DNA from: a virus
Virus record (IMG/VR): IMGVR_UViG_3300036832_001686
Location: 1-55,268 of that record
Direction: 5' to 3' (one strand)
Length of the DNA: 55,268 bases
In this document: positions 3,750 through 55,268 of the stretch, piece after piece
Layout of the letters: every line of letters begins with the position of its first letter
How positions within the stretch are numbered: the first letter of the stretch is position 1
Notes under the pieces: generated by a model
What the model was told of the DNA's origin: nothing
Database searches by the model: none
What the model saw: the letters and a program-made list of their open reading frames with translations, nothing else
Program-made: the position numbers and the translations under genes

Positions 3750-3996
3750 AGCGGCAAGCGCGAACTTGAAGGAACTCAAAACGGCGGTCCTGCGCGGTGT
3801 GGTGCTAGACCGGTCGCTATTGCAACAGGCGTTAGAAACGGTGTTTGTGAGTATCGCGCAGATCATTCGAGCCAGTGATTTATCGGCCGACGAGAAGAAC
3901 GATTTACTGCGCTCGATCGCGGATCTGCCGTTAATCCTTGAGCATGTCAGCCAGAAGCAAGGGGTGCGCTTAGCCAAAGGTGAGGACGAAGAATAA
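3649..3996 (+). CDS. probable terminase small subunit (Nu1-like)
   Basis: 115 aa from the ATG at 3649; the frame is open back to 3583, but those codons overlap the endonuclease gene. The body is a long helix (LKWRFLQEQLRDKAASANLKELKTAVLRGVVLDRS) followed by LADLPLILEHVS-type helices, as in the C-terminal half of Nu1-type small subunits (lrGelvd..ev). No N-terminal HTH is seen. It overlaps the large subunit start by 17 bases, the usual TerS-TerL arrangement. The call rests on position and helix pattern, not on a diagnostic motif. Confidence 0.55.
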   Translation: MEKNILLKPNGNGQNGETSAELKWRFLQEQLRDKAASANLKELKTAVLRGVVLDRSLLQQALETVFVSIAQIIRASDLSADEKNDLLRSIADLPLILEHVSQKQGVRLAKGEDEE

Positions 3997-6037: not shown

Positions 6038-6944
6038 TAGCGGGTTCAAATTCTTCAATGCTGAAAAGGTAAGCAGCTTGATGCTGGATTTTCAGCGGAC
6101 GGGGGATCACCGTCTGTTTGAGGGGATCCTCAAAGAGTCGACTCGGCTAATCAAAGCCAACATCGAAGAGAAGCGCACGACTTACTACGTGGCCAGCGAT
6201 GAATTGATTTCCCGAATCAATCTCAAGCTTTTCAAGAGTGTATCTCATTACGATCCGGGGCGCGGGAGCGCGTATAGCTTTGTCAATAAGGTCATTAAGA
6301 CCCAGCTTTGCAGTGCGGTCATGGAGCGCAAAGCGCAGTTGCGGAAGCAAGTGGACTGGGACAGCAGTTACGAGCAGAGCGTACCGGCCGCGCTGCGCGA
6401 TGGCGCCCTGATGGAAGATCTGATCTGGAAGATCCGGCAAATAAAGACCATCTGCACGGACGACTTTGAACTGGGTGCCCAACGTTGGATGGTGGACAGC
6501 TACATCGAGTGCGGCTTCAAATTGCGCCGGCATGAAGCGGCTGACGCCATGATGACAGTGTTTAATATTGGCCACGGTCGGGCGCGCCGGTTGCACGATC
6601 TGACGCTTCTAGAGATTCGGCGAGCGGTCTGGGAAGATCACCCTAACGGGAAAGAAATTGCGCCCGCGAGCTTAGCCGGCACCAGTTCGCGGCCGTTAAT
6701 TCCTTACGCCAGATATTTGTCGGTTGCAGATTTCACGAACTTAGTCTGTTTATTGGAAGGCTTAGCGCCGGCTCTGGTGATGTACATCAAGGCGCAGAAC
6801 ATCCGCGCCATCCGCAAAGGCAGCGCTAAAGCGCTCGCCGAGAATCTGCGCTTGATCATTAACGGCCACCCCCAAGCGCGGTTACTTTTTAAGCTGGAAG
6901 GCAAAGCTTATATCGAACATTTGTTAGCGAAGAGCTCGCAGTAA
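6024..6944 (+). CDS. sigma-70-like (region 2) protein within the head module
   Basis: 306 aa, overlapping the terminase gene by 14 bases. Residues about 20-105 match sigma region 2: a helix ending FEGILKEST, then VASDELISRINLKLFKSV (DLiqe..l.l.k.), the hallmark HYDPGRGSAYSFVNKVI (FDp.rG.fssy....i) and TQLCSAVMERKAQLRKQ. Around 170-210, MMTVFNIGHGRARRLHDLTLLEI resembles a region-4 HTH. The C-terminal 90 residues are helical and unassigned. It may direct host RNA polymerase to late promoters. An assembly role for a decayed sigma fold is the alternative. Confidence 0.6.
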   Translation: MLTDDSGFKFFNAEKVSSLMLDFQRTGDHRLFEGILKESTRLIKANIEEKRTTYYVASDELISRINLKLFKSVSHYDPGRGSAYSFVNKVIKTQLCSAVMERKAQLRKQVDWDSSYEQSVPAALRDGALMEDLIWKIRQIKTICTDDFELGAQRWMVDSYIECGFKLRRHEAADAMMTVFNIGHGRARRLHDLTLLEIRRAVWEDHPNGKEIAPASLAGTSSRPLIPYARYLSVADFTNLVCLLEGLAPALVMYIKAQNIRAIRKGSAKALAENLRLIINGHPQARLLFKLEGKAYIEHLLAKSSQ

Positions 6945-11378: not shown

Positions 11379-12008
11379 ATGCCGACTTCTGATGCCGTTA
11401 TTGTTGGTAAAATTACCATCCCCGAGGTTGGGGGTGGCCCCATCATTCCTCCTGCTGACGCGGTAGTCATGCCGCCGATTTATTTGCCGATCACGCCGCC
11501 AGGTCAGCCTGAACACCCGATCTACATTCCCGTTTATCCGGCTCATCCCATTGAGATTGTGCCGCCTACACCGGAACACCCGATCTATTTGCCTTCCGAT
11601 GGTAGCCCGACCCATCCGATCTATATCCCGGGCAAACCGACTCATCCGATCGCTCCCGGCGGTGGACCCGAGCATCCGATTTATTTCCCAGTATTTCCAT
11701 CACATCCCATCGAAATCGTGCCGCCTACGGCTGAACATCCGATCTATTTGCCGATCGGACCGGAGCATCCGATTTATTATCCCGTCGGGGCGGAACATCC
11801 GATTGTTTATCCACCGGAAGGAACACCGGAACACCCGATCTATTTGCCGGTCGCACCCGCCCATCCGATTGAATTGCCGGAGGCACCGTCAGAACCTGGC
11901 AACGGCTTAACGCCGGAACATCCGATTCTGTTACCCGGCGATACCATCACCCTTTACGTATCCCTGGGACCAGGAAAACCGATTCAGATCGCCATCCCCA
12001 AGAAATAG
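11379..12008 (+). CDS. Pro-rich HPI-repeat protein following the capsid gene
   Basis: 209 aa. Thirteen HPI tripeptides occur, mostly as EHPIYLP-like units with variants such as AHPIEIV and THPIAPG, spaced about 10-14 residues apart from residue 45 to 190. The motif is nearly devoid of helix formers and should be an extended, polyproline-like chain. Its place directly after the capsid suggests a head decoration or fibre-like surface protein; the family is familiar from other phages but has no function I can name. The N-terminal 45 residues are Val/Ile/Pro-rich. Confidence 0.75.
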   Translation: MPTSDAVIVGKITIPEVGGGPIIPPADAVVMPPIYLPITPPGQPEHPIYIPVYPAHPIEIVPPTPEHPIYLPSDGSPTHPIYIPGKPTHPIAPGGGPEHPIYFPVFPSHPIEIVPPTAEHPIYLPIGPEHPIYYPVGAEHPIVYPPEGTPEHPIYLPVAPAHPIELPEAPSEPGNGLTPEHPILLPGDTITLYVSLGPGKPIQIAIPKK

Positions 12009-16246: not shown

Positions 16247-16612
16247 ATGAGTGAGCTGCAAGTCGTAGAAGAGAATAGTGCCCCTGAAGAACTGAAACCC
16301 GAGGACGATCCTCGGTATTTCATGCTGTCCAAGCCGATTCGGGCCGGCACGCGGACCCTGGATAAATTGCTGATCGATGCGAGCACCCTCGATGGCGTGA
16401 CGTACTTTCAGCTGGTCGAAGAGTGGAACCGGCGCTGGCCTGGCGCGGTGCGCAGGTTCCCCGTCAAATCGCAGGACGACAATTGGTTGATGCTGGTGAT
16501 TGCCAAGCTCAACGATATTCCTCCCGAGGATCTCGCTAAGCTGAATTTCACCGATCTCAATACTCTGTTTCCTCGAAGCTTAGCTTTTCAATTTTCCCAG
16601 AGTCAGAAGTAA
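16247..16612 (+). CDS. tail assembly chaperone (P2 gpE-like), zero-frame product
   Basis: 121 aa. It matches the tail assembly chaperone family: RYFMLSKPIRAGTRTLDKLLI (leL..Pi..g...v..L.lr.P), then EEWNRRWPGAV and a terminal LPRSLAFQF-like stretch. The zero-frame product ends at 16612, but a -1 frame continues and encodes the E' half (see next entry). Chaperones of this pair coat the tape measure before tube polymerisation; the tape measure gene follows directly. Confidence 0.75.
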   Translation: MSELQVVEENSAPEELKPEDDPRYFMLSKPIRAGTRTLDKLLIDASTLDGVTYFQLVEEWNRRWPGAVRRFPVKSQDDNWLMLVIAKLNDIPPEDLAKLNFTDLNTLFPRSLAFQFSQSQK

Positions 16613-43392: not shown

Positions 43393-43460
43393 TCTGGTTT
43401 TTACTGATCTGGATCGGGCTCACGCTCTTAATGCTGCGATTCTTGCAATTCACCAAATGA
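43389..43460 (+). CDS. 23-aa single-helix membrane micro-protein
   Basis: ATG inside the end of the PAPS-like gene (overlap of four) and TGA overlapping the parB-like ATG (ATGA). Product MIWFLLIWIGLTLLMLRFLQ plus FTK, a single hydrophobic helix with a basic end. Same layout as the 25-aa peptide at 39997. Confidence 0.5.
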   Translation: MIWFLLIWIGLTLLMLRFLQFTK

Positions 43461-44018
43461 AAATTCATCCGGTAGCAGACCTCTTTCCTATGATGTCGGA
43501 TGACGAACTCACCGAGCTCGCCACCGACATTAAAGCTAATGGGCAAATCCATCCCATTATTATCGATAACGATATTATTATTGATGGTCGGAACCGGCTC
43601 GAGGCTTGCAATCGGGCTGGAATACAACCGACTTTTGCCGAGCTGAACGGCCAAGATCCGGTCGCGTTTATTCTCTCAGCCAATATTGCAAGGCGCCATC
43701 TTTCCAAGGGCCAACAAGCCATGGCGGTAGCGAAAGCGTTATTACTAAGTAATAAAACGCAAACTCAGGCGGCAAAACAGACGCAAGTAAGTCAAACCCG
43801 GATCGCACAAGCTTCGATCGTTCTGCAATACGCACCCGATCTAGCCGATGGCGTACTATCGGGCGCGCTCGCGCTCAACGTCGCCTATGAACAGGCGCAA
43901 AAACGTAAAGATCAAAGCAGCTCAACCGATGAAGCGTTAAAACGGTTGCACAAAGAATCGCCGGAATTAGCCGATCTGGTTGTGGAGGAACGGATGAGCT
44001 TAGGCGAAGCCGAGGCGG
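43457..44018 (+). CDS. ParB/Srx-like domain protein, N-terminal part
   Basis: ParB-like N terminus: KIHPVADLFPMMSDDELTEL, IHPIIIDNDIIIDGRNRLEA (the box II-like DGrnR), then ILSANIARRHLSKGQQAMAV and an HTH (KTQTQAAKQTQVSQTRIAQA). Continues at base 1 to the stop at 375 (269 aa total). In this linear reading the frame runs past 44018 into unrelated sequence and ends at 44110, which is an artefact of the junction. Confidence 0.85.
43892..44018. repeat. 127-bp exact direct repeat, copy 2 / junction
   Basis: Identical to 1-127. Bases from 44019 depart abruptly to a leftward gene that lacks its natural end. Marks the boundary between the phage circle and the second element. Confidence 0.85.
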
Positions 44019-44255
44019 GATGCCCGCCCCGCCGAGTCCTTTTTCGGTCAGCACTAAATGCCGATCGAGAAAGAGTTCTCGCAGTGCCATACGGAAGAAT
44101 GAGAAATTAGTTTCATCCTTGCCGTAAGGCCCGGCTAATTGCTGTAGATCTTTCATTTTATAGAAAGCGCCATGACTAATCGGACCGAGCTCTTTCTCAA
44201 TCCGGTCCATGATTTGCAGCATGAACTCGTTTCGAGTTAGCAGTTCCTCGCTCAT
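44019..44255 (-). pseudogene. C-terminally cut gene of the second element
   Basis: About 79 residues from the ATG at 44255: MSEELLTRNEFMLQIMDRIE and FFRMALRELFLDRHLVLTEK, helical, no family recognised. The frame reads across 44019 into antisense parB, so the true end is missing. Coupled by ATGA to the upstream gene. Confidence 0.6.
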
Positions 44256-44866
44256 GGTAAGACCTCCACTTCAAAACGCCCGTAGCGCGGCCGCCAATCG
44301 CATAGTCCGATATAAAACCCAGCATCGATAGCCGATTTAAGTAGAGCGTCCCCGTTCACCACGTTCGCATCGAATTTCAGTAAAAACTCGAGCACCCACG
44401 GAACGGGGAAAATTGGTCGGGTCCGCACAATTCGGCTTTGATTAACCCGAACTAACTTCGTGAAAACGAAGTTGCTGTTACCATCTGCCCACATTTTTTC
44501 CTTGGTCCGCGGGCCTTGGTAATCGAGCCGGATCACGCCCGCGTCACCGGTTTTACCATCACCCTCCACAAAAACGGCCAATCCGACCTCTTTTCCATAT
44601 TTGGACTTTTTAGCCCCGGCGGTGATGGTAGCTAATATATTATCGGTTGGGACCACTGGCCCAAATTTTTCATCCCAATATAAACTTCCTTGCCACTCCG
44701 CCTTAGCTAAATCGACCAAATCTTCATCGGTCTTTTTTCTTTTGGAGCTCAGCGCCTTGATGCGCCTAGCTGCTGGGTTCAGTGGATTAGCTAAAGTACC
44801 TTGGTGATGGATTAGATCACTGACTCCGGTAAACCGGAGCCGCATCGTTTCTAAACTAGATTTCAT
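44252..44866 (-). CDS. conserved mobile-element protein ending in WRPRYGRFEVE
   Basis: 204 aa. LRFTGVSDLIHHQGTLANPL, LYWDEKFGPVVPTDNILATI, TAGAKKSKYGKEVGLAVFVE, RIVRTRPIFPVPWVLEFLLK and the terminal GLCDWRPRYGRFEVEVLP form a pattern I associate with a conserved phage early protein of unknown function. Last complete gene of the leftward operon. The strong C-terminal motif implies an ordered core, and a nucleic-acid-binding role would be inference. Confidence 0.6.
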   Translation of the reverse strand: MKSSLETMRLRFTGVSDLIHHQGTLANPLNPAARRIKALSSKRKKTDEDLVDLAKAEWQGSLYWDEKFGPVVPTDNILATITAGAKKSKYGKEVGLAVFVEGDGKTGDAGVIRLDYQGPRTKEKMWADGNSNFVFTKLVRVNQSRIVRTRPIFPVPWVLEFLLKFDANVVNGDALLKSAIDAGFYIGLCDWRPRYGRFEVEVLP

Positions 44867-44869
44867 TTT

Positions 44870-44891
44870 CTATCTTTCTTTCTTTCTTTCT
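44870..44891. repeat. TTTC tetranucleotide tract
   Basis: A run of CTTT units just upstream of the 44866 start (minus strand AAAG), purine-rich on the transcript, so it could work as a ribosome site. Confidence 0.45.
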
Positions 44892-44914
44892 GTTCGAGCC
44901 TCACGAGCTCGCTA

Positions 44915-45040
44915 CTGCCGACTAACAATTCTGTTAGCCGGCAGTGTGCGAACTAAATCGCCCATGCCTTGCCTTGCCGCGCCGTGCCTGGCCCTGCCTC
45001 GCCTTGCCTCGCCGCGCCTTGCCCTACCAAGCCGCGCCAA
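44915..45040. repeat. hairpin plus GCCNN array, module 1
   Basis: Inverted repeat CTGCCGACTAACA (44915-44927) with TGTTAGCCGGCAG (44932-44944), one mismatch, then a short spacer ending CGCCCAT, and 16 pentamers (44961-45040) of form GCCNN with the last two bases variable; one unit begins C and one begins A. It ends GCCAA-AATCC. The minus-strand frame over it (Gly/Ala/Arg-rich) is a by-product of the repeat. Confidence 0.7.
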
Positions 45041-45071
45041 AATCCTAGAGTCTGCTTTCAGCAGCTCGCTA

Positions 45072-45204
45072 CTACCGTTAGCAGTTGCCAACGGCAGTAT
45101 GCGAACCGTTATGGTTTCGCCCATGCCTTGCCCCGCCAGGCCTCGCCTCGCCCTGCCGTGCCAAGCCTCGCCGCGCCCTGCCAAACCCGGCCTCGCCAGG
45201 CCAA
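45072..45204. repeat. hairpin plus GCCNN array, module 2
   Basis: Same design: CTACCGTTAGCA (45072-45083) with TGCCAACGGCAG (45086-45097), two mismatches; a spacer ending CGCCCAT; 17 pentamers (45120-45204); same GCCAA-AATCC end. Stem sequences differ from module 1 while pairing is kept, and in both arrays one unit near the right end begins with A. Confidence 0.7.
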
Positions 45205-45263
45205 AATCCAAATTTTTAACTGACCTTTTTTCGTAAGCTTTTTTTAGGTCCGTGCGTTATTTA

Positions 45264-45473
45264 TTAGGGATCAAGCTCATTGGCTGTTAGCTCTGCCAAG
45301 CGGTCGATCAACTCTAAGGCCCCGGCCAAAGTCTCGAGATCCAAGCTCGAATCGAAGAACACCCGGTCGCGGCACCCGGCAACAAACGCGCGGCCAGTGA
45401 GTCCCCTGGCTTTGGCGCGCTCGATTCCCGCCTCGAGCAGCGCGACTAATTCGTTTTGTTTGGGAGTCATCAT
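45264..45473 (-). CDS. small helical protein, second element early operon
   Basis: 69 aa. Entirely helical (NELVALLEAGIERAKARGLT, LAGALELIDRLAELTANELD). No family. Follows the 78-aa gene by 20 bases on the minus strand. Confidence 0.5.
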   Translation of the reverse strand: MMTPKQNELVALLEAGIERAKARGLTGRAFVAGCRDRVFFDSSLDLETLAGALELIDRLAELTANELDP

Positions 45474-45493
45474 GTTAGTTACTGCTTAGTTTT

Positions 45494-45730
45494 TTAATTG
45501 CTCTCGAACCGATCAGCTTCGAGCCCGCGCTGACCAACCTGGAGGAACTCCACCAGCTCGGAGACATCGCCTTTGGTGCTCACGAAATAGTCGAAAATCA
45601 TGTAACCAATCTTTTTTTCGACCGTGTCCCACTCTTCGCTTCCCAGCCAATCTAGGGCCAGAGCTTCGAAGGCCTGCCGTTGTTTCAACCGGGCTTCTTC
45701 TATAGGGTCCATATTCTTAGGAGTCTGCAT
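45494..45730 (-). CDS. small acidic protein, second element early operon
   Basis: 78 aa. EEARLKQRQAFEALALDWLG and EKKIGYMIFDYFVSTKGDVS, acidic and helical. No family recognised. Confidence 0.5.
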   Translation of the reverse strand: MQTPKNMDPIEEARLKQRQAFEALALDWLGSEEWDTVEKKIGYMIFDYFVSTKGDVSELVEFLQVGQRGLEADRFESN

Positions 45731-45857
45731 TGATAGCTAGTCGGCTATTTTGGTTAGTTGCGGGCGGCCCGGCCAAATGCAGAAATGCGCGTCCGTCCGC
45801 TGCGCAGGTTTTTCCGACAAGCATGGTCACTCTGCGCTTGACCGTGTCCGCCTACTC

Positions 45858-46184
45858 TCACTTCCCGCCGGCGGCTGGCGGGTAAGCTTTTACTTTCGCC
45901 AGTTTATCTAAAATTCGATCCAGCGTAGCTTCCAGCTCTTCCAGGTCGGTCCCATCGAGAACGATAGACACCAGTTTATCGACGATGTTAGTTGTCTGGT
46001 TCTCTAATGCTTCCAGATCACTGGGGGTGTTTTCCTCAATGTATTTTAGGTTCCCGGTGATATTATTTGTCTGTTCGTTTAATGCTTCCAGATCACCAGG
46101 AGTATTTTCTTCGATGTACCGCAGGCCAACGGCGATATTACCTGTCTGTTTGTTTAGTTCGTCGAGATGCTGCCGCTCATTCAT
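45858..46184 (-). CDS. coiled-coil protein with three 25-aa repeats
   Basis: 108 aa. LNKQTGNIAVGLRYIEENTP-GDLEA, LNEQTNNITGNLKYIEENTP-SDLEA and a degenerate third unit. Heptad-like hydrophobic spacing suggests a rigid helical bundle. Overlaps the next upstream gene by eight bases. Unknown function. Confidence 0.6.
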   Translation of the reverse strand: MNERQHLDELNKQTGNIAVGLRYIEENTPGDLEALNEQTNNITGNLKYIEENTPSDLEALENQTTNIVDKLVSIVLDGTDLEELEATLDRILDKLAKVKAYPPAAGGK

Positions 46185-46554
46185 TTGTACTCTCCGCCGT
46201 TATGCGAAGTTCCCGCCGAGGGGCATCATCGACGATCCCAACAAATTCGCAGTGAGTGTCACGCAGACAATCCTGCCCGTTGTCGCCACCCTCAAAAATA
46301 ATTGCCCAAACCTCTGAAAATCCGTGTTCGAGCTGACATCGCCGGATTTGGTCTGGACTCCACGAATGCGGGACCGTGATGTCGATATCCAACTTGCACC
46401 GGAAACGCGCGACCTTGGTTACGACGACGCAATCGCGAGCGTGCGGAGTACCCACTAACTGCTCGCAATAAAAACACGCATCCGACGGTCCGGCTGGCCG
46501 GATACCGTCGTCTTGTGGATCCACTAAAGGCCAATTCGAATCGCCTGTGCTCAT
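46177..46554 (-). CDS. Cys/His-rich small protein, possibly metal-binding
   Basis: 125 aa. SDACFYCEQLVGTPHARDC holds C-x2-C and H-x3-C, a zinc-knuckle-like set; the rest is beta-rich (DIDITVPHSWSPDQIRRCQL). Four-base overlap with the gene upstream. Confidence 0.5.
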   Translation of the reverse strand: MSTGDSNWPLVDPQDDGIRPAGPSDACFYCEQLVGTPHARDCVVVTKVARFRCKLDIDITVPHSWSPDQIRRCQLEHGFSEVWAIIFEGGDNGQDCLRDTHCEFVGIVDDAPRRELRITAESTNE

Positions 46555-46796
46555 TGCGCTTTGGCCAGTTGAGCCCTCTGAAACCGAGCACCCCCAGGCA
46601 GGAACGAATGGATAAAATCGTCGAGCGACTTTTTGTTAATCAACCGAACGCCTTTGCGTTTCCCGGGCTTAACAATATGGACGCTCAAGACCTCTTCGGT
46701 CATGCATTGCCGATAGATCTCCGAAATGGATAGCCCGGTCCTGGCGCTCGCGTCTTGGAGCTTCTCCCAGTCGGGTTCGACGAATTTTCTGCTCAT
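46551..46796 (-). CDS. excisionase-like HTH protein of the second element
   Basis: 81 aa from the ATG at 46796; an earlier start at 46814 adds six residues. RTGLSISEIYRQCMTEEVLS and KPGKRKGVRLINKKSLDDFI are the helix-turn-helix plus wing of AlpA/excisionase-like proteins. Fits control of the integrase at 47490. Confidence 0.55.
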   Translation of the reverse strand: MSRKFVEPDWEKLQDASARTGLSISEIYRQCMTEEVLSVHIVKPGKRKGVRLINKKSLDDFIHSFLPGGARFQRAQLAKAQ

Positions 46797-46914
46797 GAAC
46801 AATATTGAGCACAAATTCGCAATCCGAAATAGTCGGCCTCAGAAAGATTTTTTAAGAGCACCTATTTCGCCTGAAATTGGTGGCCTTGAAGAAAAAGCTA
46901 GAGGCCCACTATTT

Positions 46915-47475
46915 TTAACGCTTGGTCGGTCTGCCAGCTCGAGCCGGCTTAAGCGCGCCTAAGCCCGCTTTTCGAAGAATTCGGGTCCAAGCGTGTTTTT
47001 TCGGAACAGCTTTTCCGGCCGCTTTTAAAATCTCTTCGGCTCTGGCTCTCACTTCGCGTTTGGTCGGCCAGTCATTCTTAGATTCACCGATAAAGAGAGC
47101 GTCAAAGACTTGAAGCGCCGCCCGGATCCCGTGCATTTCCGGTTCGGGCCAACTATCGTAATCCATGACTTTGAGAAGATTTTCAAAGTAAGCGCGGTCA
47201 CCGTCGAAAGCGGCTTTTAGAAGCCGGGCCTTGAATTTTTCGATATCTGCGGCGCCGCTTTCCAAAACCTGGCGATAGAATGGGGAATCGGCAGAGAACT
47301 TTTCGAGTAACCCAGGATATCCTTTTTCATAGTCGCGCCAATCTTCGAGCTGTTCCCAAATATCGGCAGGACTGTCCAGCGGCTGCTCAAAGTTAAGATT
47401 GTCGATATTGTACTTTTGGTACGCATCGAGATAGCCAGGCGGATATTCTATCTTCTTGTACTTTTCGTCTTCCAT
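46915..47475 (-). CDS. 186-aa protein downstream of the second integrase
   Basis: Helical, acidic N terminus (DAYQKYNIDNLNFEQPLDSP) and a basic C terminus (AWTRILRKAGLGALKPARAG) that could bind DNA. KREVRARAEEILKAAGKAVP is predicted as a separate helix. Not recognised. Begins 14 bases after the integrase stop. Confidence 0.55.
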   Translation of the reverse strand: MEDEKYKKIEYPPGYLDAYQKYNIDNLNFEQPLDSPADIWEQLEDWRDYEKGYPGLLEKFSADSPFYRQVLESGAADIEKFKARLLKAAFDGDRAYFENLLKVMDYDSWPEPEMHGIRAALQVFDALFIGESKNDWPTKREVRARAEEILKAAGKAVPKKHAWTRILRKAGLGALKPARAGRPTKR

Positions 47476-47489
47476 GGAACCGCGAACCC

Positions 47490-48674
47490 CTATTGGGCTT
47501 TGGGCAACCGCGGGATGAGTTGAGTGGCGGCTTTGATTGCGTCCAGATCCTCGTGGATATAGCGGTCGACTACGCCCCCGGCGGCGTGATTGGTGACCCG
47601 GCGGGTGATCTCCCGAAGGGCCGCCCCGTTGAATACATTGCTGGCCGCGGTGTGCCGGAAACTGTGAAACGAGAGCGCCCTGACCGAACGGCCTTTGCCT
47701 GCGTTGCCTTGACGCAAGAACCGCTTTTCAATACCCGCCTTGTCGAGTAACGCAACGAACGTATTCGAAAGCCCGTGCTCGCCATTCAACGCCTTGTCGG
47801 CCAACGTGGGGAATACCGGTGCGTCAGCGGCCTCCTCGGGTGTGGGCCGAACCGCTAGCCAATCAAGAAAGTCAGAGTGCAACCCAAGCACCGCCTGGGC
47901 CTTGGTCTTGCGCTCACGAAAAACGACGATCCCGTTCGCAACATCGAGGTTCGACCATTTAAGGCTCTTGCAATCACCGAGTCGGGCCCCGGTCCCGTAC
48001 GCGAACAGGATCACCCCTTGCCAATCAGAATCAGCGACCGCGAGCAGAGCGGCGATTTGGTCGCCCGTAAAGGTCTCTTTACTGAGCGACTCGCTCCTTT
48101 CGGGCGCGGTCGCCATGACCGGGTTGAAGCGGATCTTGCCGACCTTGCGGGCCTTCTCGAATGGGGCTGACAAATATTTGCGGATCAGCTTATTGATCGT
48201 CGCCGGGGATCGGCCCTCTTTGCGTAGGAGCCGGATAAATCCTTCAATATCGGCTGTGGTAATGGAATCCAGACGCCGGGTTTGGGCGCCACGTCCGCCC
48301 AGGTAGGCTAAAAATTCCTCAACAGCCTGGGCATAGGCTTTATAGGTTGAAACTTCAATCTGGCCCTCTTTAGAGCCGAGCCATTCACCCAACCAGCTTC
48401 CGACACTAACGAAGTCGATTCCTGAGGAGCCGATCCGTTCGAGGGTTTCATTTAAGATTTCTAAGACCCGGGATTGGGAAAGCCGCCCCTCTGCTGCCGC
48501 ATCTTCGGCACTCTGCCAGGCCTCGGCGATAACCTTCGCCTTGGGCTTATCCCGGGTCTTAGTCGAACGCCAGACCCGGCGTCCGTCGCCGAGAGTGAGA
48601 ACTGCGTACCAGGTGCCTTTGGGGGATCGAGTGTTGCGGTGAACCGAAGCCATAGACTCACTAACACGATTCAC
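47490..48674 (-). CDS. tyrosine integrase of the second element
   Basis: 394 aa; M8 at 48653 (MASVHRNTRSPKGTWYAVLT) is the likelier start. SAM-like N-terminal domain with LGEWLGSKEGQIEVSTYKAY. Catalytic Arg in FAYGTGARLGDCKSLKWSNL (about 220), HxxR in LSFHSFRHTAASNVF (about 345), and NHAAGGVVDRYIHEDL with His and the nucleophilic Tyr. Its own tRNA-derived attachment fragment lies at 48758, just outside the start codon. Clearly different from the first phage's integrase. Confidence 0.88.
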   Translation of the reverse strand: MNRVSESMASVHRNTRSPKGTWYAVLTLGDGRRVWRSTKTRDKPKAKVIAEAWQSAEDAAAEGRLSQSRVLEILNETLERIGSSGIDFVSVGSWLGEWLGSKEGQIEVSTYKAYAQAVEEFLAYLGGRGAQTRRLDSITTADIEGFIRLLRKEGRSPATINKLIRKYLSAPFEKARKVGKIRFNPVMATAPERSESLSKETFTGDQIAALLAVADSDWQGVILFAYGTGARLGDCKSLKWSNLDVANGIVVFRERKTKAQAVLGLHSDFLDWLAVRPTPEEAADAPVFPTLADKALNGEHGLSNTFVALLDKAGIEKRFLRQGNAGKGRSVRALSFHSFRHTAASNVFNGAALREITRRVTNHAAGGVVDRYIHEDLDAIKAATQLIPRLPKAQ

Positions 48675-48727
48675 TACCGAGCAACTTAATTCCAGAACAT
48701 TCTAGAACATTCTTCTCTCTCGGAATC

Positions 48728-48808
48728 AGGCACTTACAGAGGGGTGAATAAGGTACCGAGGGTTCGAATCCCTCCCCATCCGTAGGTGCTTAGAATGAGG
48801 CACTTACA
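48728..48808 (+). other. attachment region: tRNA-Ser-like 3' end flanked by AGGCACTTACA repeats
   Basis: At 48758-48782: T arm GAGGG-TTCGAAT-CCCTC, acceptor strand CCCATCC and discriminator G, without a CCA or any 5' half. The acceptor implies a GGATGGG 5' strand, as in tRNA-Ser. AGGCACTTACA occurs at 48728-48738 and 48798-48808, and a related inverted copy (TAGGTGCTTAG) at 48783-48793, as integrase arm-type sites would. The expected partner end is not in the window. Confidence 0.65.
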
Positions 48809-48895
48809 ACAAATCAGAGCCAGAAAATCGCCAATTCGCTAACAGATTCACTAACAGGCGTTTTGAAATCGGCTTGAACTAACTTGAAATCCCTC

Positions 48896-48922
48896 CTGCC
48901 CTGCCGAAGTTTACCAGGCCGG
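48896..48922 (+). repeat. 27-bp direct repeat, left of hicAB
   Basis: Matches 49405-49431 at 25 of 27 bases (CTGCCCTGCCGAAGTT then YACCAGGYCGG). Only these two copies are seen, one on each side of hicAB. Confidence 0.7.
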
Positions 48923-48969
48923 CCAAGCTCGGCTAGTCTGTCGCTGTGCCAACGCTTTGCCAATGAAAG

Positions 48970-49179
48970 ATGCCTCGCAAGATCCGAGACCTGATCAAGG
49001 ATTTAAAGTCGGCTGGTTGGTCACAGGTTGCCGGGGGCAAGGGCTCCCACCGGAAATTCAAGCACGACAAATTCCCTGGGGCGGTGCTGATTCCGGGTCA
49101 CGATAACGACGACTCTAAACCCTACCTAGAAAAGCAAGTTAAGAACGCGGTTAAAGGCCGAATGGTACGCAAGCCATGA
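48970..49179 (+). CDS. hicA: HicA-family toxin (mRNA interferase)
   Basis: 69 aa. KIRDLIKDLKSAGWSQVAGG is the HicA start (k.....l...Gw....g), then KGSHRKFKHDKFPGAVLIPG with the catalytic His in GSHRKF, and KQVKNAVKGR at the end. dsRBD-like fold; cleaves mRNA and stalls growth. Four-base overlap (ATGA) with hicB. Typical for stabilising an integrated element. Confidence 0.85.
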   Translation: MPRKIRDLIKDLKSAGWSQVAGGKGSHRKFKHDKFPGAVLIPGHDNDDSKPYLEKQVKNAVKGRMVRKP

Positions 49180-49400
49180 GCGAAACCAAAAAAATCACCA
49201 TGTGGGTTCAATGGAGTGATGAAGACGGTGCCTTTCTTGGCTACTGCCCGCAGTTCTTCCCTTACGGCGCGGTCTGTGACGGTCACACCCAAGCCAAGGC
49301 CGTAACCAAACTTGCTCGACTAGTCCGGGAAGAATTGGAAGAACGCGGACAACTCCCTAAACCGCTTACGAAAGGGCGAAAGGCCCGAGTCGCACACTAA
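49176..49400 (+). CDS. hicB: HicB-family antitoxin, short form
   Basis: 74 aa. WVQWSDEDGAFLGYCPQFFP (HicB strand: ....edggy.a..p.lpg) followed by YGAVCDGHTQAKAVTKLARL and LVREELEERG. The RHH/HTH tail present in long HicB is absent, so autoregulation may differ. Confidence 0.8.
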   Translation: MSETKKITMWVQWSDEDGAFLGYCPQFFPYGAVCDGHTQAKAVTKLARLVREELEERGQLPKPLTKGRKARVAH

Positions 49401-49404
49401 GCTT

Positions 49405-49431
49405 CTGCCCTGCCGAAGTTCACCAGGTCGG
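49405..49431 (+). repeat. 27-bp direct repeat, right of hicAB
   Basis: Second copy of 48896-48922. Its last base is the first base of GTAAGTA (49431-49437). Confidence 0.7.
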
Positions 49432-49437
49432 TAAGTA
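49431..49437 (+). promoter_or_regulatory. GTAAGTA motif upstream of the copy-2 tape measure
   Basis: Exact motif ending 9 bases before an ATG at 49447 that opens a 15-codon frame (MTENLNKGARWNEAG). The same motif and spacing as in the phage's structural genes. Confidence 0.5.
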
Positions 49438-49446
49438 AGCTTTGAA

Positions 49447-49494
49447 ATGACCGAGAATTTAAACAAGGGGGCCCGCTGGAACGAGGCGGGATAG
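49447..49494 (+). CDS. 15-codon leader ORF before the copy-2 tape measure
   Basis: ATG (after GTAAGTA) to TAG at 49492-49494, just ahead of the tape-measure frame. It may be a leader that lets ribosomes restart on the tape measure, or a remnant of the chaperone gene that normally precedes it. Confidence 0.3.
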   Translation: MTENLNKGARWNEAG

Positions 49495-49498
49495 AGTC

Positions 49499-51946
49499 AT
49501 CACTCGCGATCTACAAGAGTTAAAGATCCTAATTTCGGGGCATACGGACGCCTCGGTCGGTGCCGCCAGCGCTAAAGTGGTCGGCGAAGTCAAAAAGCTG
49601 GCAGACAGTCTAGACCGGTTGGCGGTAATCGAAAAACAGATTGGCCAGGTCAACAACGCGGTCGCGGAGGGATTCAAGAAAATGGGGAGTGGCGCTCGCC
49701 AAGCCGAAGCTGAACTGACCGGCTTTGAGGCTAGCCTGAAACGAGTTAAAGAAATTGCAGCCGGCGTCTTTAGCGGCGAAGCGCTCTGGGAAGGATTTAA
49801 GGGCGGCGTCGAGATGGTCAAGGAAGGTATCGGGGATGTCGTGGAACTGCTGCAGAACGCATCGAAAGCAGCCTCTGACTTTGAGATGACGCAGAAGGGA
49901 ATTGGTAATCTGCTGCGCGATCAGCCCTATGCCAACATGCTGATCAAGAACTTGCGGGAAACCGCTGTCGGCAGTCCTTTTGCGCCCGAGACGCTGTACG
50001 GCGCCGCTCGAGCGCTGACAGGGCGCGGCATGGACAAGAGTCTGCTCGAGTCGCGCACGAATGAGCTGGGCGACATCGTGAGCGGTATTGGCGGTGGGCA
50101 AGAGATGATGGAACGGCTGACGCTCGCATACGGCGAGGCGTTCAGCGAGCACCTCGTCAACAAGCGAATTCTCAACCAGTTCGCCCAGGCTGGCGTCAAC
50201 ATCACGTCCGAGATCATGAAGGCTTATGGCATGGACCCCACGGATGCCAACGTGCAGAAATTCCAAAAGATGGTGCATGATAAACAGATCACCTTCACCG
50301 ATGTCGATAAAGCACTCTACACTTTGACGCACGGCATGGGGATTTATGCGGACGCGATGCAGAAACACGCGGAGACAGCGCAAGGTATCTGGACGGGATT
50401 CATCGCGAGGCTGAACTTCATCGAAGTCGATCTCGGCGGCATCGTTAACGACATCTCGATGACGTTGCTGAACCTGCTCGAAAAGAGCGGCTTTCTGAAA
50501 GCATTCGACACCTGGCTGCAAGGGATCCGCACCATAGCGGACAGCATGACCGAGTATTTCAAGCTGTTTAACGGCGAAAAGATTATCCATTTTTTCCAGA
50601 CCGTCGGAGACGGCATCCAGCAGTTCATGGTGAAGCTGGGTTTAATCTCCAAAAGTACAGAATCAAAATATCTCACTAGCGATATCTACGCCTTTGCCGG
50701 TCAGCGTCCCGAGACCTTTGGTAAACAACGGCCGCAACTGGGCCGGGTAACGCCAGCCTGGAAACTGGGCGGAGAATTCGAATCCGAGACAATCCTGCCG
50801 GCCGCACCGACACCGACGGTGGCGGATAAATTGACCAAATGGTTAGACGATCTCTCTAACACTCTGGCCAGCATTCATACGGAGCAGGTCGAAGATTTCC
50901 TGCAAGGTTTGGTGACGGTATCGACCGCAATCGGCGGAGTCAGTATGGATTTCTTTGGTGAAATTGCTGATTTCTTCAAGGACATGTACACCTTCGGGCA
51001 ATGGTGCGGCGGACCCGGCCACGATATGGTGGTTGGGTTTTTCAACGCCATCAAAGATTTCTGGAACAACATTGTTCAATGGATCTCGGATCACATCCCG
51101 CCCTTTCTGAAATTGACGGCGCCCTCGGATCAAGAGAAACGAATGAACGAAGCGGCGGATAAAGCCCGCAGCACCGTCGATATCGACCAGGAGACAGTCA
51201 ACCAGCGGCAAAGCGACCTGGACAATAAGATGTTGTTGGGCACCCAAGACCAAATTGATCACGCTAAATCCGCTTTAACCCTGGCCCAGGACAAGTTGAA
51301 AGTTGATACCGCGCTCGCCGCGGCGGCAGAGTCACTCACCAAAGCGTTCGAAGGTCATAGCCCCGGGCTGATCCCGGCAACCGAGACTGCGACCGCGGCG
51401 CTAGATGCATTTGCCCAGGCCATGCTCTCTATGCCCCTTGGAGCAGCCACGGGGGGCTTTGGTGGTGCGGTCGCTGGCGGTGGTGCTGGCGTCACTGAAT
51501 ACGGGCCGAGCATCGATCCGCCCGGGTCTGCTGACTACGATTATAACTCGTATCACCGTATCGGTGCGTGGCCTGGAAAGACAGGGCCCTTGAGTCCTGG
51601 TGATGTCGCGCTTGGCTACGGCGCGCAAGCTCATTACGGGGTGCAGCCCGGGCAATGGTTCACTGACGATCAAGGGCGCCACGTTCGCTTCGCCGATCGC
51701 AGCGGGAGCAAGAATCCGATGAACGAGGACATTTTTCGCCTCGCTGCTGGCGGCATTGTGCGACGTCCGACGACTGCGCTAATTGGCGAGTCTGGGCCCG
51801 AAGCGGTGGTGCCCTTACGCGGTGCCGGCGGTATCGGTCACACTTTCAATGTGACGGTTAACACTGTCGCCGGTGACGGCTACGCAATCGCAGAGATGGT
51901 GATGAATGCACTGCAGGAGCTCACGGAGCGAACCGGCTCCGTGTAA
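49499..51946 (+). CDS. tail tape measure protein, copy 2 (start codon altered)
   Basis: The frame is open from 49463; similarity to copy 1 begins with ITRDLQELKILISGHTDAS at 49499, where copy 1 has an ATG, so the natural start codon reads ATC here. A GTG at 49577 gives 789 aa; translation from 49499 would give 815. The middle and the last 200 residues are close to copy 1 (AAGGIVRRPTTALIGESGPE identical), with an extra segment (WISDHIPPFLKLTAPSDQEK) near residue 515. Full-length and open, so still under selection or recent. Confidence 0.85.
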   Translation: MTRDLQELKILISGHTDASVGAASAKVVGEVKKLADSLDRLAVIEKQIGQVNNAVAEGFKKMGSGARQAEAELTGFEASLKRVKEIAAGVFSGEALWEGFKGGVEMVKEGIGDVVELLQNASKAASDFEMTQKGIGNLLRDQPYANMLIKNLRETAVGSPFAPETLYGAARALTGRGMDKSLLESRTNELGDIVSGIGGGQEMMERLTLAYGEAFSEHLVNKRILNQFAQAGVNITSEIMKAYGMDPTDANVQKFQKMVHDKQITFTDVDKALYTLTHGMGIYADAMQKHAETAQGIWTGFIARLNFIEVDLGGIVNDISMTLLNLLEKSGFLKAFDTWLQGIRTIADSMTEYFKLFNGEKIIHFFQTVGDGIQQFMVKLGLISKSTESKYLTSDIYAFAGQRPETFGKQRPQLGRVTPAWKLGGEFESETILPAAPTPTVADKLTKWLDDLSNTLASIHTEQVEDFLQGLVTVSTAIGGVSMDFFGEIADFFKDMYTFGQWCGGPGHDMVVGFFNAIKDFWNNIVQWISDHIPPFLKLTAPSDQEKRMNEAADKARSTVDIDQETVNQRQSDLDNKMLLGTQDQIDHAKSALTLAQDKLKVDTALAAAAESLTKAFEGHSPGLIPATETATAALDAFAQAMLSMPLGAATGGFGGAVAGGGAGVTEYGPSIDPPGSADYDYNSYHRIGAWPGKTGPLSPGDVALGYGAQAHYGVQPGQWFTDDQGRHVRFADRSGSKNPMNEDIFRLAAGGIVRRPTTALIGESGPEAVVPLRGAGGIGHTFNVTVNTVAGDGYAIAEMVMNALQELTERTGSV

Positions 51947-51953
51947 TTGATAC

Positions 51954-51975
51954 AACTAACCGACGTCGGTTAGTT
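51954..51975. terminator. 22-bp perfect palindrome between convergent genes
   Basis: AACTAACCGAC joined to its own complement GTCGGTTAGTT, no loop, followed by TT. It lies 7 bases after the tape measure stop and 4 bases before the end of the leftward 57-aa gene; a bidirectional terminator or a protein site. Confidence 0.6.
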
Positions 51976-51979
51976 TCCA

Positions 51980-52153
51980 TCACGGTCGACGTATCCCGAA
52001 AGTCTGCTCGGGTGCTTGGCGGCTCAGAGGGCTAAAGCGAAAGTTAGTAATGATAGGCGCTTTAACTTGAGCAGGCTTTTCCTCCTGCGCCCAGGAGGCC
52101 AGCAGTTCCTCTGCACGTTTTCGCAGCAAACGGTTAGAAAGTTTCCGAGACAT
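51980..52153 (-). CDS. small basic protein downstream of the lone capsid gene
   Basis: 57 aa. MSRKLSNRLLRKRAEELLAS helix, then a basic tail (FRFSPLSRQAPEQTFGIRRP). Begins nine bases after the capsid stop, same strand, so co-transcribed. Unknown; a capsid-associated or connector role would be inference. Confidence 0.5.
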   Translation of the reverse strand: MSRKLSNRLLRKRAEELLASWAQEEKPAQVKAPIITNFRFSPLSRQAPEQTFGIRRP

Positions 52154-52162
52154 AACTTGTTA

Positions 52163-53320
52163 TTAATTGCTCACGCCCGAATTTGTCGAGATCGCCCAGG
52201 CTTGCGTGTGCCGGAACTTAACATCTACCCAGCTGTCCAAAATAAAGCGAACGCGCCCGCTGGTACTTTGGCTATACGGATCCACAAAAACTTCAGTGCC
52301 GCCCCAGTGGGCAAAAATCGCATTCGAGAAATCTCCAAAGAGCACTTGGTTAGTGGCTCCGATCTGGTTAGTTCCGATAAAATCCCAGCCAGCGATACCT
52401 GCGTCATTCGCGTAAAAGTTTGGATAATAGGTGGTCGCGCCTCGTGCATCCTGACGTGCGTATCCCTTCCACGCGGCTAATGTGCTCGGCGAACAAACGA
52501 ACCGGGTGGTTGCAGGGTCTAGATCCACATCGCACGCGCCGGCGACATTCGCCTCGAATTGCAAGACTGCGGCCCACGTCGGCGGCCCGCCTGTTGCGAA
52601 CGTCACCGAGGGGGCTAGCTCGCCATAAACGCTCGTCCCGGGCGCGGAACTCGGGATGGTAAACAATCCCACAGGCTGGTTGTTAGCCGGCCCAGTGCCC
52701 CATAACCCTGCGTAATCTTCAGCCACTGCGATGCTCCTCAACAAATCGTTGGCGACGAACTGTTGGGCGCTCAAAGCGCTTTGAGTTAACAATTGTCGAC
52801 TGACCACCGCAACCGAGTTCAATCTCTTGGGGGACAAAACAATTTGTGCGAAAGTTCGGTCCGAACTGGTCGCGGGGCTGATCTCGGGAAGCCACGCCGA
52901 AGTGGAGGCCGAGGTCTGACCTGCAATCGCCAAATCACCCTGAAGATTGTCGAGAAAAACGGCCCCGGCTCGACCAAAGACCATCTTTTTTCTGAGCAGG
53001 TCGATCAGTCGCGGCGACACATCCGTCTGGATAAGCGAACCACCGGCGCCAGGCGTACCTGCCACGGCGTCGCGCATCACCGCTCGCCCGATCGGTGTGT
53101 CTCTTAACGAAAAGCAGAGACACGAATCGGGGAGCCAAATTGCGTTCGGATTTTTTTTCTGGCGCCCTTCAGATAGAGCAACGTCAACCGCTTTTTCCAG
53201 GCCGCTCAATCGCTGATCGCCCGCCTCGCGCAGAGCTTTGCACAAATCGTAACGCTGCAGTTCCTTTGCGGGGATCGACGGGAACGGAGCCAGAGTCAGG
53301 GGCTTGGTTTGATAGTCCAT
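52163..53320 (-). CDS. stand-alone HK97-fold major capsid protein
   Basis: 385 aa from the ATG at 53320; the frame opens at 53389. Matches the capsid half of the phage fusion protein: RYDLCKALREAGDQRLSGLE, DAVAGTPGAGGSLIQTDVSP, LLRKKMVFGRAGAVFLDN and the C-terminal FAHWGGTEVFVDPYSQSTSG. Estimated by eye at roughly half identical. No protease domain and no acidic linker, so maturation would need a protease in trans. Adjacent genes contain no portal or terminase. Confidence 0.85.
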   Translation of the reverse strand: MDYQTKPLTLAPFPSIPAKELQRYDLCKALREAGDQRLSGLEKAVDVALSEGRQKKNPNAIWLPDSCLCFSLRDTPIGRAVMRDAVAGTPGAGGSLIQTDVSPRLIDLLRKKMVFGRAGAVFLDNLQGDLAIAGQTSASTSAWLPEISPATSSDRTFAQIVLSPKRLNSVAVVSRQLLTQSALSAQQFVANDLLRSIAVAEDYAGLWGTGPANNQPVGLFTIPSSAPGTSVYGELAPSVTFATGGPPTWAAVLQFEANVAGACDVDLDPATTRFVCSPSTLAAWKGYARQDARGATTYYPNFYANDAGIAGWDFIGTNQIGATNQVLFGDFSNAIFAHWGGTEVFVDPYSQSTSGRVRFILDSWVDVKFRHTQAWAISTNSGVSN

Positions 53321-53436
53321 TTTTGGTGACTTTGTTAGGTCGATTTGACCGCCTAAACCGTACACCCTGGACCACGGGCTTGACAGCACAAAAGATGTCG
53401 CTTGTCCAGAGCTGCGCCGTCTCTGATACTAACGCC

Positions 53437-53802
53437 ATGTTTTCCTGGCGCAGAGCTTTTGCGGCCCTCTTGCCGCCGCATAAAAAAACTGGCGAGCAGG
53501 TGACGCGACCGCCGTTGATGTTGTCACCGCTCTTCTCCTCGCCGTACAGGAGCGAACCAGTTGGTTGGTTTACCCATGTTGCAGGCCTCGATGTCACCGG
53601 CAGCAACACCAACTCCGGACTGTTCAACCGTCGCCCTCGTTCGTGGGAGACTCAGCAACAAGTCCCGAATTGGGTAGGAGCGGGACAGCACTCACCGCCA
53701 GCGCCGCTTTTGCTGGACGCGAATCAAGCCCCAGGATTCTATCGGCCTCGCATTTCGGTTTTCACAACGCCGGCTAAGCTCGGCCGTCTCTGGAAATGGT
53801 AA
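53437..53802 (+). CDS. possible 121-aa protein, unrecognised
   Basis: MFSWRRAFAALLPPHKKTGE with a Pro/Arg/Ser-rich remainder, ending two bases before the next frame. A leftward frame overlaps it. Composition is not strongly coding, so the call is weak. Divergent from the capsid gene. Confidence 0.25.
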   Translation: MFSWRRAFAALLPPHKKTGEQVTRPPLMLSPLFSSPYRSEPVGWFTHVAGLDVTGSNTNSGLFNRRPRSWETQQQVPNWVGAGQHSPPAPLLLDANQAPGFYRPRISVFTTPAKLGRLWKW

Positions 53803-54036
53803 TTGCAAGACTCAACCCGACGAACACTGCTGTGCAGCGCTGCTGAGGGCGATGTCTATTTCGCTCGGGCCGAGCCGTGGCGAGGCTGCTGGTTTGAACT
53901 GCGCTCGAACACGCCTCCAGGAGTATGCTTGGCCACCTATTGTTTGCCGGGAACACAGCCGGCGTGGTTAGGAGACCGTCCGCCTGCGCCCGAGACGTGG
54001 GTGCAGGTTGCCCGTGAGCGGCGACTGATCCCTTGA
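53803..54036 (+). CDS. possible 77-aa protein
   Basis: TTG start immediately after the previous stop. GDVYFARAEPWRGCWFELRS and a C-terminal PAPETWVQVAR. Its end resembles that of the next ORF (LAPPAWVQKIP), hinting at a duplicated small family. Confidence 0.3.
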   Translation: MQDSTRRTLLCSAAEGDVYFARAEPWRGCWFELRSNTPPGVCLATYCLPGTQPAWLGDRPPAPETWVQVARERRLIP

Positions 54037-54076
54037 CAGCGCGACTCCTCGGGGATTACACAATTGCTTCTGCGGT

Positions 54077-54319
54077 ATGGATGCTCCCCCTCATCTCTGC
54101 ACCCTCATCTCGCGAACGCATTTTCTGACCGTCAAGGACCGCCACGGCTGGCAATGGTTTGCCTACTTTTGCACATCTGAAATCACACAAGAACGCTGGA
54201 TTGAACTCAAGGGCAGCGAGGACCGACAAGGCTGCACCAAGCGCTATTGGTTGCCCGATGACCAGCACGAGCTCGCGCCCCCGGCGTGGGTGCAAAAGAT
54301 TCCGCGCCAACTGCTCTAG
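54077..54319 (+). CDS. possible 80-aa protein
   Basis: ISRTHFLTVKDRHGWQWFAY and CTKRYWLPDDQHELAPPAWV, aromatic-rich. ATG start. Similar in layout to the preceding ORF. Not recognised. Confidence 0.35.
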   Translation: MDAPPHLCTLISRTHFLTVKDRHGWQWFAYFCTSEITQERWIELKGSEDRQGCTKRYWLPDDQHELAPPAWVQKIPRQLL

Positions 54320-54609
54320 ACGATGATCGGCAGCGTCTGCGGCAGTAATTGATAGAGCGTGCTCGCTAAAGAAAAAAGGCTAGTTAATCGTCCACTAGCA
54401 CACACTAGTTTCCGACCAACTAGCCCAAAAACCCAAATATCTAGAACCAGATACTTCTTCTTGAGCCTACTACAACAACGCACCGCAGACAAAGGAATAC
54501 CGGCAGCGAGAGAACGCCCAGATAACGTCAACAACGGTGCTCACTCCTGGCCGTCATTTTCTGTGTGCCGTGCAGCGGGTACCGTTTGCCAGAAATTTAA
54601 AAGTGCTAC
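54320..54609. other. stretch with no convincing gene
   Basis: An 84-codon frame (54359-54613) has low-complexity composition and I do not call it. CTAGT recurs (around 54371, 54392, 54406 and 54418, including its complement), without a clear unit. Confidence 0.4.
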
Positions 54610-54807
54610 ATGAAATTTGATCAATCGAATACGGTCTATATCGGTGATGCCGTTTACGCGACTTTTGATGGTTGCGGCATCGAATTACGACTTAACAGCC
54701 ACAAGAGCGAATGCCTCATCTATCTTGAGCCTGAGGTGATGGCAACCCTGGTCGAATTCTGGCGGAACGCGAGCGAGGTCGAAAATTCGAAAGTTCTATT
54801 CAAATAG
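54610..54807 (+). CDS. conserved small phage/mobile-element protein (YLEPEV motif)
   Basis: 65 aa. VYIGDAVYATFDGCGIELRL and CLIYLEPEVMATLVEFWRNA match a common short phage protein with a GDAVYa.fdG....L ... iyLEPEV pattern. Function unknown. Confidence 0.65.
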   Translation: MKFDQSNTVYIGDAVYATFDGCGIELRLNSHKSECLIYLEPEVMATLVEFWRNASEVENSKVLFK

Positions 54808-54872
54808 CAGTTGTTCAGCAAAAGTTGCTGGAAGTTGAAAACCTCGCGCCAAAACGAAGTTTTGCACTGCCT

Positions 54873-55130
54873 TCACTTTTCACGCAGACTTTTGAGCAAA
54901 TCGTCGGTCGATTCGAACACCGGCAAATTTCCACTCTCGGCTTCTTCGAGCGCCAGGTGAAGCCGCTCTTCATTTGCATTTGATCCCAAAAGATAAGCAG
55001 TTTCGGCATCGCTATTTGTTTTGTGTGAAACATTCTTAGCCGGCAGCTCGAATTTTTCTCTTAGCTTCTTAAAAAATAGCGGCGCAGCTTTCGGCCGTCC
55101 GTTTTTGCGCTGACTTTTTGGGCGCTTCAT
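54873..55130 (-). CDS. probable type II antitoxin (Phd/YefM or RelB-like)
   Basis: 85 aa. The C-terminal AYLLGSNANEERLHLALEEA followed by ESGNLPVFESTDDLLKSL is typical of antitoxins. Basic N-terminal half (KRPKSQRKNGRPKAAPLFFK). No toxin gene is visible downstream on the same strand before 54610; the region upstream of 55131 is cut by the window end. Confidence 0.45.
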   Translation of the reverse strand: MKRPKSQRKNGRPKAAPLFFKKLREKFELPAKNVSHKTNSDAETAYLLGSNANEERLHLALEEAESGNLPVFESTDDLLKSLREK

Positions 55131-55268
55131 TTCTTACCGCTTAGATAATTCGCACAAAATATCGCGGTCTTCGTGCATGATCTCCGAGGGTCCCTATTTT
55201 GGCCGCCGGCAAGTTTTGCACTCACTCAAAAAATCTCACATTCGCAAAAAATTCGTGGTCCTCAGACC

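Follow-up and report, generated by a model that had tools for sequence, protein, structure and literature searches.

A candidate phage satellite with a stand-alone capsid gene and its own tape measure gene

Phage-inducible chromosomal island-like elements (PLEs) of Vibrio cholerae assemble chimeric tails with a tape measure encoded by the satellite (PMC12987554, Nature, March 2026), and in PLE11 it escapes a tail-blocking protein (PMC12987554). Putative tape measure (tmp) genes are also found in some capsid-forming phage-inducible chromosomal islands (cf-PICIs; PMC12987554 Extended Data Fig. 10), which as a group encode a full set of head and packaging genes (capsid, protease, portal, connectors, TerL, TerS and HNH; PMC10690885). 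Here we analyze IMG/VR record IMGVR_UViG_3300036832_001686 (the window; 55,268 nt), whose last 11 kb contain genes for a tyrosine integrase, a full-length tape measure protein (TMP2) and a stand-alone major capsid protein (MCP2), together with an attachment (att) site. We consider it likely, though well short of certain, that this segment is part of an integrative phage satellite whose capsid and tape measure would both go into chimeric particles. The integrase and att architecture, an excised attP state, intact and constrained genes and a complete relative (the G001 element, described below) that has the same plan and a TerS-like gene are all read from the sequence and support the satellite-like character that the original prediction had proposed.

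The element departs from both cf-PICIs and PLEs in one or more of the features compared; we therefore place it outside these two groups and file it under phage satellites in the general sense. Like a PLE, it is an integrative, satellite-like element with its own tape measure, homologous to that of a phage, in a contractile-tail setting. PLEs, however, carry a tail chaperone and in some cases also a baseplate hub, neither of which was seen in the window fragment. The PLE11 tape measure is ~20% identical to that of its helper, whereas TMP2 is 75% identical to the tape measure of the phage in the window (TMP1), and the capsid proteins in PLE11 particles are those of the helper, whereas the window element has its own capsid gene (these distinctions are drawn against the published description of PLEs). 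The presence of an own capsid gene, both in the window element and in the G001 element, is shared with cf-PICIs, as is a putative tape measure gene with some of them. In place of the whole head and packaging module, however, the G001 element has just the capsid, a TerS-like and an HNH-like gene, and no protease, portal, connectors or TerL are present there or in the window fragment. The Streptomyces satellites MulchRoom and MiniFlayer also have their own capsid genes, but alongside genes for TerL, portal, scaffold and adapter proteins; the tail of the long-tailed one is believed to come from its helper (PMC10690885). Classical phage-inducible chromosomal islands (PICIs), including the Staphylococcus aureus pathogenicity islands (SaPIs), and P4 resemble the element in having an integrase and a small size (about one-third of the helper genome), and the TerS-like gene of G001 has a counterpart in some SaPIs. 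These satellites reshape the helper capsid through scaffolding or redirecting proteins, however, and do not replace the capsid subunit.

What looks new, judging by gene content, is (i) a capsid domain without a protease, TerL or portal (the absence of portal and TerL being taken from the relative) and (ii) a tape measure without a chaperone. The original prediction had held that a capsid-forming satellite with a tape measure as well would be new; given the PLE tape measures in chimeric tails, a satellite tape measure now has a precedent (PMC12987554).

Composition of the record and a complete relative

The window is an assembler's join of two molecules, in which the element fragment is cut at both ends. 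Bases 1–127 are identical to bases 43892–44018, and the identity stops there with no extension. An overlap of exactly 127 nt matches a common assembly k-mer length. Joining position 43891 to position 1 produces an unbroken ParB-like open reading frame (ORF) of ~270 aa across the closure, and the genes at 43457 (+) and 44255 (-), on either side of 44018, are both broken at the join. It follows from the overlap and the ParB-like ORF that the phage is a 43,891-bp circle and that the remaining sequence comes from another molecule. The view of phage and element as physically one genome, implicit in the original prediction, is thus incorrect, and findings that rest on the phage plus the last 11 kb as a single genome need revisiting. 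A phage carrying an integrated satellite is also ruled out by the exact overlap and the two broken genes, which lie away from the att site. An Illumina adapter, suspected at the join from the translation, was searched for and not found. Tetranucleotide profiles of the phage and the element fragment differ weakly, and the hosts are neither clearly linked nor separated by them.

A scan with the integrase identified one record, IMGVR_UViG_3300047160_035982 (G001; 64,318 bp), with an integrase 80% identical to that of the window (dN/dS, the ratio of non-synonymous to synonymous substitution rates, is 0.045, with dS near saturation). Two identical 26-nt att cores, CCGTGGGTTCGAATCCCACCCCTTCC, were located at G001 positions 47395 and 63489 by an exact search after DNA comparison, and bound an element of 16.1 kb. 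The integrase gene lies at its right (attR) end and a lone capsid gene (383 aa; PF05065, E=1.4e-32) just inside attL at its left end. Also present are an AAA helicase gene, a ParB-like gene, an HNH-like gene and the TerS-like gene (50405–50998), which has homologues in four phages, located at TerL or immediately before it (best E=4e-17); the corresponding part of the window's element is missing. The TerS-like gene had no hidden Markov model (HMM) match in profile searches, and the AlphaFold model of its product is weak (pLDDT 61). Besides the integrase, the window fragment and the G001 element share a phrog_4652 gene, two early proteins and a GCC-rich tract, which in G001 (L012) occupies the same relative place beside the phrog_4652 gene (~58041–58506). 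A complete element with both att sites was therefore obtained for the relative, but not for the window. As for related islands with the same gene set, the single one found shares the integrase and carries a lone capsid gene but no tape measure. By comparison with its 16.1 kb, the window fragment is probably ~5 kb short of a complete element. In G001 46001–47420 (L012), a prophage integrase is followed by a tRNA-Ser 3′ half and then by the satellite, apparently two elements in tandem at one tRNA gene.

The att core of the window resembles a tRNA 3′ end (GGGTTCGAATCCC at 48760). The 120 bases to its right match the element side of attL in G001 with a score of 48 (shuffles -25.6 ± 9.2; z=8.1; 0/500), and the 90 bases to its left match the element side of attR with a score of 40 (shuffles -22.0 ± 8.7; z=7.2; 0/500). 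On the chromosomal sides of the G001 sites, similarity to the window ends about where the shared core ends. Because both window flanks match the inner flanks of the G001 element, the site in the window is attP and the element is in its excised form; the integrase, HicAB, TMP2 and MCP2 consequently form one unit. We had first favored an attR, with TMP2 and MCP2 in the host chromosome outside the element, since the integrase lies to the left of the core as it does at attR of the relative. The flank comparison ruled this assignment out, the right side matching the inner side of attL and not the chromosomal side beyond the core. The relative's capsid gene is likewise just inside attL, and we regard a chromosomal location of the two genes as very improbable.

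The features of a discrete integrative element are thus present (an integrase gene with attP in the window, and a 16.1-kb spacing of the two att cores in G001), and the contiguous head and tail modules of an ordinary prophage are not; there are only isolated tape measure and capsid genes. In tblastn searches of the 11.25-kb fragment with the phage proteins, no remnants of terminase, portal, protease, tube, sheath, baseplate or chaperone genes were found, and with all phage proteins no TerL, portal, protease or tail genes were detectable in the G001 element. These results bear on the possibility that the window fragment derives from a complete or partly decayed temperate phage of odd gene order, with its remaining head and tail genes in the missing part. 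The two cut ends of the fragment leave room for such genes, and integrases and toxin–antitoxin cargo occur in temperate phages too. TMP2 and MCP2 are nevertheless single convergent genes with no module neighbors, the complete relative also lacks the other structural genes, and MCP2 is without the protease domain that phages have fused to their capsids, so that we consider a temperate phage unlikely. A decayed prophage, the main alternative in the original prediction, is similarly disfavored by the lack of other structural gene remnants, and the finding that it had named as contrary to a satellite, a head and tail module in relatives, is not borne out by G001, where tblastn found no structural gene other than those named above in the 16.1-kb element. 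Its statement that terminase, portal, sheath and baseplate genes are absent holds for the 11.25 kb present, but the fragment is incomplete and the whole element may differ. The features of the window are collected in Table 1.

Table 1. Features of the phage circle, the assembly overlap and the element fragment in the window
Feature	Position	Strand	Remarks
Phage genome, complete, contractile-tailed, temperate	1–43891		Closes via ParB-like gene; donor or candidate helper
Phage TerS-like gene	3583–3996	+	Homologue of G001 element gene 50405–50998
Phage protease-capsid fusion, 720 aa	9177–11339	+	Homologue of MCP2
Phage tail assembly chaperone	16247–16612	+	PF10109, E=1.2e-5; counterpart not found in 44019–55268
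Phage tape measure TMP1, 788 aa	16763–19129	+	Homologue of TMP2
Exact repeat of record start, 127 nt	43892–44018		Assembly k-mer overlap; record leaves phage circle here
Satellite-like element fragment, excised form, 11,250 bp	44019–55268		Synteny with G001 element
Early gene, family phrog_4652	44252–44866	-	E=1.9e-50; G001 counterpart E=1.9e-11
GCC-rich repeat tract, candidate replication origin	44938–45213		Next to phrog_4652 gene; putative origin role
Small conserved early protein	46551–46814	-	44% identical to G001 counterpart
Conserved early protein adjoining integrase	46915–47475	-	34% identical to G001 counterpart
Tyrosine integrase	47490–48674	-	PF00589, E=1.3e-14; 80% identical to G001 integrase
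attP, tRNA-Ser 3′-end core and arms	48753–48816	+	Both flanks match G001 inner flanks
HicA-type toxin, cargo	48970–49179	+	PF07927, E=3e-14
HicB-like antitoxin partner	49176–49400	+	Overlapping ORF; assigned by position and appearance only
Tape measure TMP2, 815 codons from ATC 49499 (789 aa from GTG 49577)	49499–51946	+	PHROG tape-measure families
Palindrome, 22 nt, self-complementary	51954–51975		Between convergent TMP2 and MCP2; terminator-like position
Stand-alone major capsid protein MCP2, 385 aa, HK97-type	52163–53320	-	PF05065, TIGR01554, phrog_617

The tape measure and capsid genes

The close relationship between TMP2 and the phage tape measure that the original prediction had noted is confirmed: the 75% identity extends over the full length. 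TMP2 exceeds TMP1 by only 27 residues, and a large change in tail length, which had been part of the same proposal, is not expected. Across 787 codons without stops, the pair has a dN/dS of 0.14 at a dS of 1.07. This ratio is pairwise and takes both lineages together; constraint on the element's own branch is inferred from the open frame, since none of 300 simulated copies carrying 10% unconstrained change stayed open. TMP2 is, on these patterns of substitution, under purifying selection. For MCP2, the divergence from related genes is too great for an estimate of dS, but most of the differences sit at third positions of codons.

The first codon of TMP2 is ATC, whereas that of TMP1 is ATG. Codons 2–26 differ from those of TMP1 by 10 synonymous and 2 non-synonymous changes, and this constraint suggests either that translation from the ATC is likely or that the start was recently lost. 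A G-rich stretch upstream of ATC 49499 could serve as a ribosome-binding site, possibly for a non-standard, weak start. The replaced start codon is also what might be seen if both genes were silent passengers that recombination had brought in, and the capture of a different capsid by the relative could be read in the same way. The dN/dS of 0.14, the absence of stops in 815 and 385 codons and the probable separate acquisition of lone capsids by the two related elements, discussed below, all argue against such passengers, which we judge improbable. No tail chaperone matching that of the phage was found in the fragment, where the neighbors of TMP2 are HicAB and MCP2; the closeness of TMP2 to TMP1 suggests use of the helper's chaperone. 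Neither a single-sequence scan nor a scan with a TMP alignment returned close relatives of TMP2.

MCP2 matches PF05065 (E=1.5e-31) and scores above the TIGR01554 cut-off. It shares 48% identity with the C-terminal 385 residues of the 720-aa protease-capsid fusion of the phage and corresponds to a complete capsid domain, uninterrupted by stops, without the protease and N-terminal part of that fusion. In all five full phages of this capsid family whose gene is available in its entirety, the capsid is fused to a protease (720, 738, 754, 760 and 780 aa), whereas the lone capsids of the two elements have 385 aa (MCP2) and 383 aa (G001). In the capsid tree, MCP2 is the sister of the capsid protein of the window phage (support 100/100) and the G001 capsid branches elsewhere, on a long branch whose placement is uncertain. 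A tree forcing the two lone capsids together is rejected (approximately unbiased (AU) test, p = 0.0009), from which we conclude that the capsid domain was probably captured independently by the two related elements. Both MCP2 and TMP2 are sister to genes of the window phage, TMP2 being the nearer (75% versus 48% identity), so that the two were probably acquired at different times. A single-sequence scan returned no close relatives of MCP2, and its AlphaFold model (pLDDT 36) is too poor for use.

The sister relationship of both genes to those of one phage family has another possible explanation, in which that family is a target and the capsid and tape measure co-assemble with helper particles and poison them as a defense, rather than forming transducing particles. 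Satellites are known to disturb tail assembly (PMC11364771, PMC12987554). A poison would usually be shortened, however, and MCP2 is a full capsid domain, while purifying selection across the whole of TMP2, including its conserved C-terminal part, suits a working structural protein; interference of this kind therefore seems rather unlikely.

Candidate helper phages and neighboring genes

In the satellite interpretation, the tyrosine integrase of the element would insert it at the 3′ end of a tRNA-Ser gene, and growth of a helper phage would lead to its excision and spread in chimeric particles, a mechanism for which the PLE tape measures offer a precedent (PMC12987554). We infer helper dependence, the use of both proteins in particles, smaller heads and the identity of the helper as follows. 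Having a lone capsid and a tape measure, and lacking genes for portal, TerL, protease and tail tube, the element would be unable to build a particle alone. It would provide its own capsid subunit, as the capsid domain alone, and its own tape measure, and a helper related to the window phage would supply the portal, protease, large terminase, tail tube, sheath, baseplate and tail chaperone. The 16.1-kb G001 element is 0.37 the size of the 43.9-kb phage, near the one-third of the helper genome typical of satellites (PMC10803314), and smaller heads would fit this ratio. Any benefit of TMP2 is more likely to lie in compatibility, timing or escape from interference, for which PLE11 provides an example; tail length would hardly be altered.

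Several observations weigh against the satellite interpretation. The sole complete relative found carries no tape measure, the window element is incomplete and other structural genes could sit in its ~5-kb gap, and TMP2 has no accompanying tail chaperone gene, unlike the tape measures of PLEs. The ATC start of TMP2 could reflect weak translation, recent loss or an assembly error, and the tetranucleotide composition provides no tie between the element and the window phage.

The phage itself has TerL, portal, sheath, baseplate and integrase genes by PHROGs, as well as the protease-capsid fusion, chaperone and tape measure. Its role as helper, raised in the original prediction, is suggested only by the sister relations of TMP2 and MCP2 to its genes. 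Another candidate helper is L021, a phage with a capsid of this family that comes from metagenome 3300047160, as does the G001 element. A sigma-70-region-2-like gene lies directly after TerL in this phage family (window 6024–6944; L018 2368–3303) and is also present in the G001 element (L012 5109–5954), where it is 62% identical to the gene adjoining TerL in phage L018; its product is possibly a late-gene regulator common to helper and satellite. The gene after the phage capsid gene (window 11487–11900) encodes proline-rich tandem repeats with HPIYxP units.

The named gene set of the element is largely real, including the integrase, the tRNA-Ser-like att site, HicA, TMP2 and MCP2, but the HicB-like partner had no HMM support in profile searches. 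Repeats of 30 nt that are 90% identical (48893–48922 and 49402–49431) lie on either side of HicAB, as in a mobile cassette, and the repeat has no copy in G001. The small conserved early protein (46551–46814) had no family match in profile searches and is possibly a DNA-binding excision or regulatory protein. Scans of genome contigs with integrase and capsid alignments, Rfam, PADLOC and a DNA search of the phage collection returned no match.

Implications for phage satellites

More tentatively, and with doubt that slightly outweighs belief, the window and G001 elements may define a new satellite family that swaps two geometry-setting parts into the helper virion, the capsid having been captured independently in different members. 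Such a satellite would use a capsid subunit that has lost the protease and N-terminal part, together with a tape measure near enough to the helper's for the helper's chaperone and hub. The pair of TMP1 and TMP2 raises the question of why a satellite would keep its own tape measure when its length nearly equals that of the phage, and MCP2 that of whether a capsid subunit without the protease and N-terminal part assembles with, or instead of, the helper's. If the interpretation is correct, capsid- and tail-modifying satellites would extend to a lineage without known members, and the element would represent a middle form between P4 and SaPIs, which only reshape the helper capsid, and cf-PICIs with their complete head module.

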